Part shown: positions 67-510 of the stretch, one piece after another
Position numbering within the stretch: the stretch's first letter is position 1
Layout: every line of letters begins with the position of its first letter
Assembly (NCBI GenBank): GCA_022865965.1
Contig: JALHTS010000311.1
Span: 1-10,549 of the forward strand
DNA from: Ignavibacteriaceae bacterium
GTDB lineage: Bacteria; Bacteroidota; Ignavibacteria; Ignavibacteriales; Ignavibacteriaceae
Direction: 5' to 3'
Length of the DNA stretch: 10,549 nucleotides
Notes under the pieces: model-generated
Seen by the model: the letters and a program-made list of their open reading frames with translations, nothing else
Databases searched by the model: none
What the model was told of the DNA's origin: nothing
Made by a program: the position numbers and the translations under genes

Positions 67-139
67 GGGGCTATAGCTCAGCTGGGAGAGCGCTTGAATG
101 GCATTCAAGAGGTCAGCGGTTCGATCCCGCTTAGCTCCA
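67..139 (+). tRNA. tRNA-Ala (anticodon GGC)
   Basis: The 73-nt cloverleaf is complete. The acceptor stem GGGGCTA (67-73) pairs with TAGCTCC (132-138), with one G-T wobble. The D-stem is GCTC/GAGC (76-79/88-91). The anticodon stem CTTGA/TCAAG (93-97/105-109) encloses loop ATGGCAT with anticodon GGC at 100-102, which reads Ala GCC/GCU codons. The T-stem is AGCGG/CCGCT (115-119/127-131) with loop TTCGATC, and the discriminator base is A139. CCA is not encoded (CAA follows), so the end must be added by nucleotidyltransferase. Its 3' 31 nt (110-140) are duplicated about 320 bp downstream beyond a GIY-YIG gene, which suggests this tRNA was the target of a small integrating element and was left intact. 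Confidence 0.97.
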
Positions 140-164
140 CAAACATTCCAAAAAGTTCCTTTCT

Positions 165-422
165 ATGTATTATTTATATGTTTTGAAGAGTAAAAGCACT
201 GGAAAGTACTATATTGGTCAAACCAAAGACTTACAGAGAAGACTTCAATACCATAATGCAGGGTATAATAAATCAACAAAAGGCAGTGTACCCTGGGAAC
301 TAGTTTATTACGAAGAATATTCAACGAGAAGTAAGGCAGTTAGAAGAGAGAATTATGTAAAGAAAATGAAGAGCAAGGAATTCATAGTTAGGATAATCAA
401 AAGAGGAGAGCGTCCCGATTGA
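165..422 (+). CDS. Small GIY-YIG domain endonuclease-like protein
   Basis: An 85-residue protein that is essentially a single GIY-YIG nuclease domain of the compact YhbQ/UPF0213-like type. The degenerate first motif is YLYVL (residues 3-7). Then come Y16-I17-G18, the candidate catalytic arginine in QRRL (R25/R26), H30-N31, and the metal-binding glutamate E62 in the A-V-R-R-E-N-Y-V-K-K helix. All expected catalytic positions are present, so it may be active. The ATG start sits 25 bp after the tRNA with no clear Shine-Dalgarno, so it may be read with the tRNA transcript. The last codons (GERPD, stop TGA at 420-422) lie in sequence resembling a tRNA D-arm and anticodon arm, so the C-terminus seems to have been captured from a tRNA. 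Family members include homing-type and repair-type nucleases; the substrate here is unknown. The flanking tRNA repeats favour a role in a mobile unit. Confidence 0.85.
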   Translation: MYYLYVLKSKSTGKYYIGQTKDLQRRLQYHNAGYNKSTKGSVPWELVYYEEYSTRSKAVRRENYVKKMKSKEFIVRIIKRGERPD

Positions 423-505
423 AAATCGGGAAGGTCAGCGGTTCTCCCGAAGGGACTCTGCCAAAGGCATTCCTTCGGAAATTTTGAGGATCCCGCTTAG
501 CTCCA
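405..505 (+). pseudogene. Partial, interrupted tRNA remnant (Ala-type 3' half)
   Basis: GGAGAGCG (405-412) matches the D-arm end of the upstream tRNA-Ala (85-92). Next is a perfect hairpin, TCCCGA (413-418), loop TTGAAAA (419-425), TCGGGA (426-431), in the anticodon-arm position. Its loop would present GAA (421-423), the Phe anticodon. AGGTCAGCGGTTC (432-444) and the segment 489-505 match the tRNA-Ala variable loop, T-arm, acceptor strand and discriminator exactly, but a 44-bp insert splits the T-loop after TTC. The 5' acceptor strand and the 5' part of the D-arm are absent, being replaced by the end of the GIY-YIG gene. It cannot fold into a complete tRNA. The anticodon-arm reading could be coincidence, because the hairpin is equally an 8-bp palindrome around GAA. 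Confidence 0.7.
445..488. repeat. 44-bp palindromic (REP-like) insert in the T-loop of the tRNA remnant
   Basis: Compared with the intact tRNA, 44 bp are inserted between TTC and GATC of the T-loop. The insert holds a nested inverted repeat: outer arms CCGAAGG (447-453) and CCTTCGG (472-478), inner arms TGCC (459-462) and GGCA (466-469) around AAA. TCCCG occurs at the left edge of the insert (445-449) and again just past its right edge (491-495), a possible short flanking repeat, although the fit is not clean because GA is missing on the left. It is more GC-rich than the surrounding sequence. This is consistent with a small dispersed palindromic element; whether it is multicopy cannot be judged here. 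Confidence 0.65.
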
Positions 506-510
506 CTTAA

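Follow-up and report, generated by a model that had tools for sequence, protein, structure and literature searches.

Several described systems resemble parts of the locus considered here. In Escherichia coli, the 178-bp repeats of tyrT each hold the 3' end of tRNA-Tyr and are not known to contain a nuclease gene or hairpin inserts. They share with the present family of loci the arrangement of tandem units with a tRNA 3' end behind an intact tRNA. Mitochondrial DNA contains double-hairpin elements, in which small hairpins occur in pairs and seem to insert and to become nested; the hairpins of the present family differ from these in lying mostly in the loops of tRNA copies, within the sequence examined, and in being variable in sequence.

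Among nuclease-based systems, the T-even phages have SegB, a free-standing GIY-YIG homing endonuclease, which cuts within tRNA genes, has the motif RAWTSGAAC (23/83 sites), and is required for the tandem repeats of tRNA-Tyr and segB (PMC13096335). It is like the present family in being a GIY-YIG protein without an intron, encoded beside tRNA genes of many isotypes, but is phage-borne, and the published survey covers phage and archaeal-virus proteins (PMC13096335). Hairpin-broken tRNA copies, restoration of split tRNAs and isotype-bound lineages are not mentioned in the parts of the SegB account considered (PMC13096335). Reversed, the SegB motif reads GTTCSAWTY and would correspond to the T-loop, where many hairpins of the present family sit; the T-loop of the tRNA studied here, GTTCGATCC, departs from it at one position. 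A second precedent is provided by the mobile ORFs (mORFs) of fungal mitochondria, which carry a copy of the end of their target gene, as described for atp6 of Allomyces and for atp6, atp9, cox2 and nad3 of Glomus, where three encode LAGLIDADG and one GIY-YIG endonucleases (PMC3630166). As in the present family, an endonuclease gene inserted in another gene provides that gene with a substitute end, and the native end persists as a remnant; the mORFs, however, occupy mitochondrial protein genes and, as described, replace C-termini only, whereas the present units lie in bacterial chromosomal tRNA genes, supply either end and bring a new flank (PMC3630166). By analogy, SegB would be the best precedent for cutting and amplification, and the fungal mORFs for restoration of the target. 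A search of open-licence PMC papers turned up no account of such units at the tRNA genes of bacteria.

The window, the whole 10,549-nt stretch of DNA that was analysed, contains what is probably (roughly 0.7) a minimal mobile element consisting of one free-standing GIY-YIG nuclease gene and part of its target tRNA gene, which would move by homing. All features given below are on the forward strand. ARAGORN finds a single tRNA in the window, an intact tRNA-Ala(GGC) at 67–140, and the Rfam RF00005 match at 67–139 (63.5 bits) concurs; this tRNA is presumed to be both the target and the restored gene. An earlier sequence-only reading had noticed this intact tRNA with an ORF close behind, as confirmed here: after a spacer of 24 nt (141–164), which by analogy with a tRNA-Asp locus described below may be element-borne, follows an ORF of 85 aa at 165–422 encoding a GIY-YIG nuclease that barely exceeds the catalytic domain. 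The ORF is outside any intron or intein, with the intact tRNA adjoining it and Rfam at E 0.1 finding only the tRNA in window positions 1–700. Its stop codon (420–422) and last codons already lie in a broken copy of the tRNA, the stop codon being inside a hairpin of that copy.

The broken copy begins with GGAGAGCG at 405–412, identical to 85–92; this order is shared by two other loci (L133 and L134), and a locus in genome G038 (L007) has GAGAGCG ahead of the same hairpin. At 413–431, the hairpin TCCCGATTGAAAATCGGGA, an inverted repeat, replaces the anticodon arm CTTGAATGGCATTCAAG (93–109), and an identical hairpin occupies the same position in the G038 copy, whose T-loop is unbroken. The copy continues at 432–444 with 13 nt identical to 110–122, ending at the TTC of the T-loop, and resumes at 489–506 with 18 nt identical to 123–140, from the T-loop through the 3' end. 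Exactly between the T-loop TTC and GAT is a palindromic insert of 44 nt (445–488), which reads TCCCGAAGGGA, CTC, TGCCAAAGGCA plus TTCCTTCGGAA, and ATTTTGAG; a first hairpin is thus followed by a second, running from CTC to ATTTTGAG, which contains a 22-nt double mini-hairpin at 459–480 of a form that shows covariation in 11 other loci. The double mini-hairpin appears to be nested in another, because the outer part without the inner 22 nt reads as two like-formed 11-nt hairpins. The sequence-only reading had described a 31-nt repeat with one insertion. The two exact repeats do give 31 nt copied without a mismatch, with one 44-nt insertion, but the copy is longer, spanning 405–506, because GGAGAGCG and the hairpin in place of the anticodon arm also belong to it. 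The fold of 395–510 has an energy of −44.6 kcal/mol compared to −32.5 ± 3.6 for shuffled sequences (0/200 as low). As the window contig begins 66 bp before the tRNA, the copy was assessed on the downstream side only.

The hairpin at 413–431 resembles the anticodon arm of a tRNA-Phe, with the loop TTGAAAA, and a second tRNA was considered at this position; ARAGORN calls a tRNA-Phe(GAA) there in the G038 locus (L007:1456–1531, minus strand). This sequence is a tRNA-Ala copy with a hairpin for its anticodon arm, and the Phe reading was rejected because the remaining arms are those of tRNA-Ala.

The nuclease ORF matches Pfam GIY-YIG (PF01541) with E 9.9e-18 over residues 1–71 of 85 and shows no obvious DNA-binding domain; free-standing GIY-YIG homing endonucleases usually, though not strictly, have a separate domain for DNA recognition. 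Such small size is general, with 119/130 ORFs encoding 75–94 aa. Near-invariant residues across the 130 ORFs include H30 (98–99%) as well as Y16 (99%), G18 (98%), R26 (99%) and E62 (99%), the last four of which we take to be the catalytic residues. Two PDB sequences were matched, the UPF0213 proteins 1zg2 and 1ywl (E 9.7e-7 and 1.2e-5), which are like the window ORF in sequence but are entered as hypothetical proteins. The best phage family match is a 'homing endonuclease with GIY-YIG motif' (E 1.3e-4). A search for carriage by phages and plasmids returned 17 phage and 9 plasmid records, every one below 60% identity, and an IMG/VR scan gave no close relatives. In 8 of 19 close pairs dN/dS was 0.05–0.23; only three pairs (0.20–0.23) are sound, because dS was undefined in the other 11 and greater than 1 in five of the 8.

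Matches to the nuclease at E ≤1e-6 were present in 87/97 relatives and in 156/296 genomes drawn from the phylum, the latter count including the own genome and some of the same relatives. A survey set of 119 loci was assembled from the best-scoring matches in relatives (to about E 4e-15) and five loci of the own genome, minus three duplicates; 118 loci with a detected ORF were counted, the ORF of L003 having been missed by tblastn. An intact tRNA lies within 250 bp of the ORF in 104/118 of these loci, bearing out the earlier suggestion of a family of GIY-YIG ORFs beside tRNAs, and is on the ORF strand in 104/104. About 45 tRNA genes are present in a genome of 3.5 Mb, so such adjacency is expected by chance in approximately 1% of cases. 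The tRNA is upstream of the ORF in 73 of the 104 loci (type A) and downstream in 31 (type B). Fragments of the same tRNA number 290 on the ORF strand and 4 on the opposite strand, type A loci retaining mainly the 3' part and type B loci the 5' part. A partial tRNA copy on the far side of the ORF (score ≥12), the distal-edge feature that the sequence-only reading had pointed to, was found in 91/103 loci compared to 0/135 control regions (highest control score 10.5, after exclusion of regions in which ARAGORN finds a tRNA), which excludes a chance origin for the repeat in the window. Upstream of the intact tRNA, 19/68 type A loci have a fragment scoring ≥14, against a control maximum of 10.5. 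A shuffle test for upstream fragments, passed by 26/70 loci, was discarded as too lax because control regions passed as well (17/66).

Further loci follow the same pattern. Of 20 new loci from the phylum sample, 16 have a tRNA within 250 bp, a 17th has one at 316 bp and 3 have none; all 16 tRNAs are on the same strand and all have copies. Among 28 named contigs read by eye, 17 have a tRNA within 250 bp (17/17 on the same strand, 13 with partial copies), 2 have one farther away and 9 have none; those with copies include Flavobacteriaceae, Marinifilum breve, an acidobacterium, a Nitrospirae bacterium and three Parcubacteria-type genomes. The objection that such ORFs might also occur away from tRNA genes holds in part. 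In the survey set, 14/118 loci are without a tRNA in the sequence examined, several of them at contig ends, and weaker relatives in the own genome (L003 and L004, and by reading L005) lie between REP-like palindromes.

A direct repeat of a tRNA 3' end typically marks islands integrated at tRNA attachment sites, and the repeat in the window could on that ground be what a decayed island left around a cargo gene. We consider this explanation scarcely credible. The sequence-only reading had seen no integrase or transposase, and indeed there is no integrase between the repeats, where the ORFs of at least 50 aa are the GIY-YIG ORF plus a single overlapping antisense frame (53 aa). The survey also contradicts an attachment-site remnant: 31/104 loci have the mirror arrangement with 5' parts, the copies bear hairpins, and genes of this kind are found at a dozen or more tRNA isotypes.

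The isotypes in the set used for a nuclease tree (n = 114) are Ser 34, Asp 17, Pro 17, Asn 9, Cys 8, Gly 6, Ala 5, Arg 5, Leu 4, Glu 3, Val 3, and Lys, Tyr and Phe 1 each, the single Phe locus being the false call in G038. On the tree of these 114 ORFs (79 columns, weakly resolved), isotype requires 21 changes, with a minimum of 13, compared to 73.1 when shuffled (0/200). The C-terminal residues are encoded by the tRNA copy and might on their own draw together ORFs of one isotype; in a second tree, limited to the first 66 residues, isotype requires 27 changes against 73.4 shuffled (0/200). The Ala loci do not cluster, requiring 5 changes for 5 rows. The host families f1 and f2 require 26 changes versus 28.6 shuffled (39/200 as low) or 30.2 when shuffled within isotype (4/200), and 24 versus 28.6 (7/200 as low) on the 66 residues, so a weak host signal exists. 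These trees demonstrate, at the level of sequence, that nuclease lineages mostly keep to one tRNA isotype across host families.

The gene at 704–2065, whose product we take to be a MATE-type transporter, was used as an anchor to find the same locus in relatives. Relatives of this gene are present in 44/61 genomes (own genome counted), and thirty of their loci were examined. Among the loci listed, tRNA-Ala(GGC) lies ahead of the gene, on its strand, in 13 relatives: one has a nuclease ORF, three (G026, G044 and G016) have an ORF-less hairpin remnant of the 5' part of tRNA-Ala, and nine have neither. The nine empty relatives (G001, of the same genus, G030, G019, G059, G050, G013, G058, G047 and G037) have no fragment beside the tRNA, although G050 has a 37-nt 5' piece of the tRNA about 900 bp away. 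The existence of empty relatives contradicts the possibility of an ancient fixed locus. The expectation of an empty site at the orthologous tRNA-Ala is therefore borne out by the genus mate and eight others, but not to the level of a nucleotide junction at the window, where the intergenic flanks of the genus mate (L124) look unrelated by eye and no junction can be drawn.

Junctions could be defined elsewhere. At the tRNA-Ala locus of G002, the ORF is in the mirror arrangement, with the broken 5' part, the ORF and the intact tRNA in that order. Of the 9 empty relatives, 5 match the 80 nt that precede the broken 5' part (0/500 shuffles each; 43.5 vs 13.7 for L131) and 4 do not; none matches the 80 nt that precede the working tRNA at 0/500 (best 9/500), and 3 match the 60 nt that follow it at 0/500. 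The native promoter side is therefore on the broken part and the native 3' side on the working tRNA, the new front end having come with the ORF. For tRNA-Leu(CAG), 30 loci were compared, of which 4 have an ORF (two type A, two type B) and 26 have none in the sequence examined, a few breaking off nearby. Comparison of G047 with G055, whose contig stops right after the tRNA so that the upstream side alone was compared, gave 29.0 vs 15.6 (0/500) on the broken side and 11.0 vs 12.7 (421/500) on the working side; with G030, neither flank of G047 matches. The tRNA-Leu of G019 and G059 differs from that of G040 and G052 mainly in the 3' half, as would suit a chimeric tRNA-Leu whose end the element had supplied, but this half varies throughout the tRNA-Leu family.

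The closest pair, G010 and G035, is 90% identical across 1.58 kb, reaching nt 23 of tRNA-Asp. Past this nucleotide, G035 has one plain tRNA-Asp, while G010 has a hairpin, a break at TTCGAA, a full second tRNA that encodes CCA, a hairpin resembling a terminator, the ORF and a 3' part broken by a hairpin. The tRNA bodies of the two genomes are identical and the flanks differ, and the working tRNA-Asp of G010 (L010) encodes CCA whereas the same tRNA in G035 does not. G035 has about 7 kb at that place, with genes including a sensor kinase, a response regulator and Lgt; the native 3' flank of G010 was not found within the 6 kb examined, and with this flank lost only one junction of G010 is clean. 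As tRNA bodies are mostly identical on both sides, the foreign origin of the supplied part is argued from the flanks and, in G010, the encoded CCA. In another pair, G041 appears to carry the G020 insertion minus the greater part of its ORF. Across tRNA-Ala, tRNA-Leu and tRNA-Asp (G010 vs G035), the unit is thus present or absent at a conserved site in relatives, and at the G002, G047 and G010 junctions the missing end is supplied by the element and the native end is left as a remnant. These sequence junctions demonstrate that the unit splits a tRNA gene, the broken part keeping its native flank and the working tRNA receiving a new flank on the element side. The earlier proposal of a single-gene element that is sited at a tRNA gene and leaves the tRNA functional gains support from the large family, from the ORF-less relatives at tRNA-Ala and from these junctions elsewhere.

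Tandem arrays occur, with at least two ORFs in 37/118 loci and up to five in tandem. In G002, an intact tRNA-Asp is followed by five 315-bp units, the last one cut short, and in G019 an intact tRNA-Leu is followed by five 450-bp units and a decayed sixth, each unit consisting of an ORF and a hairpin-broken tRNA 3' end. Arrays of such units, conserved catalytic residues and low dN/dS are evident from the sequences compared. Such near-identical units could also be produced by segmental amplification without homing, in which nuclease breaks in the tRNA region lead to local tandem duplication of tRNA and ORF, as with SegB in phage T6, and all but one of the tRNA copies decay. SegB does produce such repeats, the fragments are mostly identical to the intact tRNA, and the flank of the copy resembles that of the intact tRNA in 31/53 type A and 8/25 type B loci tested, 24 of these 39 being multi-ORF loci. 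However, at single-ORF loci the flanks are mostly dissimilar (20/33 type A, 14/16 type B), in G002 and G010 the broken part has the native flank and the working part one unrelated to it, and the nuclease lineages track isotype across host families. Amplification as the whole explanation is therefore considered unlikely, though it is the strongest competitor to homing.

Hairpins in the remnants are a further feature, absent, like the tandem arrays, the mirror arrangement and the isotype-bound nuclease lineages, from the sequence-only reading. The compared loci demonstrate that the left-over tRNA part often has hairpin inserts in, or instead of, its arms, mainly in the D-loop, anticodon loop or T-loop of broken copies or replacing an arm. 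Among 96 loci with copy fragments, a fragment edge falls at the TTC boundary of the T-loop in 57, the T-loop is spanned in 18 and both apply in 5; some of the loci in which it is spanned (L046 and L081, for example) have another arm replaced. The T-loop cannot be the sole cut site, because a copy fragment spans it unbroken in these 18/96 loci and in the closely similar G038 copy. Eleven 22-nt T-loop inserts have a common form, a pair of 4-bp stems that each close a loop of 3 nt: among 88 cells, 97.7% are paired compared to 79.9 in shuffles, double changes number 17 compared to 4.9, and covariation is 0.62 compared to 0.24 (0/500 shuffles in each case), with slid structures giving 0.04–0.17. 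Further pair types are not unusual in this test (10 vs 8.5 shuffled, 96/500). Judged by covariation, the form of the T-loop hairpin is conserved while its sequence varies. In a wider set of 75 inserts, 39 exceed about 95% of shuffles in a perfect-stem test, all of them among the 61 inserts of at least 15 nt, with 950 paired bases against 522 expected; the remaining inserts are short or imperfect. A test of RNA energy gave p ≤0.05 in 34/75.

Maintenance of hairpins by covariation despite sequence change, beside an intact tRNA gene, would also suit a role at the RNA level, with the hairpin-broken tRNA as a decoy or regulator and the GIY-YIG protein acting on tRNA. This is very improbable: Rfam does not recognise the broken copy in the window as a tRNA, the junctions indicate insertion at the DNA level, and the known GIY-YIG homing relatives, SegB included, cut DNA.

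Double mini-hairpins were also considered as a dispersed repeat and rejected as such, an exact T-loop pattern being present in 1/395 genomes, at an already-known locus (L071). In 649 kb examined, 4-bp double mini-hairpins number 51 compared to 28 in shuffles and 6-bp forms 10 compared to 0; by eye, the AT-rich 4-bp forms resemble chance. Double hairpins with 6-bp stems were seen, by reading of flanks, in Ser copies, where they lie in D-loops and T-loops, and in copies on one Doudnabacteria and one Parcubacteria contig, where they lie in the anticodon loop. Hairpins of the form TCCCGA..TCGGGA are dispersed, with 5–37 per genome in five genomes versus 0–2 for the reversed pattern. ORF-less arrays also occur: G026 has 11 × 67 bp at tRNA-Asn, 4 × 114 bp at tRNA-Pro and 5 × 90 bp at tRNA-Asp, and G019 has 3 × about 137 bp at tRNA-Glu, with no GIY-YIG match in these four stretches. 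Taken together with inserts in the loops of all three arms, one hairpin nested in another in the window, and the own-genome ORFs L003 and L004 between palindromes with no tRNA found, the dispersed hairpins and ORF-less arrays could suggest a system like REP/RAYT, in which the GIY-YIG protein mobilises hairpins, tRNA arms are mere natural hairpin sites and the ORF travels along. Such a system is improbable here, as the hairpin sequences form no repeat family, the GC-rich double mini-hairpins occur almost only in tRNA-loop contexts (by reading, the sequence examined being centred on such loci), and the nuclease lineage follows tRNA isotype. The Y1 HUH transposase of RAYT/REP systems was not found, Pfam giving only GIY-YIG and T5orf172.

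Under the preferred homing reading, a nuclease specialised on one tRNA gene would cut it, often in the T-loop (TTC|GAA), and repair of the break from an element-bearing copy would insert the ORF and a replacement tRNA part. The supplied part would leave a working tRNA, so that the cell survives, and repeated cutting or recombination at the working tRNA would give rise to arrays. Hairpins in otherwise cuttable loops might make the left-over copy uncuttable. DNA cleavage and movement by the unit are what we infer from the sequences compared. A more speculative possibility, on balance doubtful, is that the hairpins are an active part of the element. Whenever a tRNA arm is cut, the GIY-YIG system would write in another double mini-hairpin, whose form (a pair of 4-bp stems, each with a 3-nt loop) is constant while its sequence is free; this insert would block recutting, could in turn be cut and take up a second one inside it, as in the window, and would spread as ORF-less arrays. 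If true, bacteria would have a class of hairpin elements that do not depend on sequence and are linked to isotype-bound homing in tRNA genes.

If the homing reading is right, the tRNA genes of many genomes in the phylum of the window, and some in other phyla, are attacked by very small mobile elements, with about one nuclease lineage per kind of tRNA, and the tRNA in use is partly parasite-supplied. The system would show how an essential gene can serve as a permanent homing site, and would provide a bacterial counterpart to SegB and the fungal mORFs and a naturally occurring set of tiny nucleases that differ in target. It would also explain an annotation error, in which a hairpin-filled copy is called as a tRNA of another isotype, and which may inflate tRNA counts.

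Some minor observations concern sequences around these loci. The ORF-less arrays (L153, L154 and L155 on G026:C1 and L156 on G019:C1) consist of hairpin-broken tRNA pieces in tandem beside intact tRNA-Asn, tRNA-Pro, tRNA-Asp and tRNA-Glu, and look like non-autonomous relatives. On contig C1 of G002, a 19-nt palindrome, TCCCGAACTTGTTTCGGGA, occurs at 3135135, 3140643 and 3142074 and elsewhere on the chromosome, with several copies within about 12 kb; ARAGORN finds no tRNA in the surroundings of some of the copies (L158–L160). The weaker own-genome GIY-YIG relatives L003 (G000:C167) and L004 (G000:C680) have no tRNA in the sequence examined and are flanked by REP-like palindromes, GTCATCCTTCGACAAGCTCAGGATGAC with a near copy and TCATTCCCGCGAAAGCGGGAATC with its inverse, as by reading is L005; L003 and L004 may form a sister branch that targets palindromes. 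The own genome has a second close relative, L002 (G000:C726:1–322), at a contig start; its C-terminal codons are in GCAGGTTCGATCCGTTAG, a sequence resembling the T-arm of a different tRNA.
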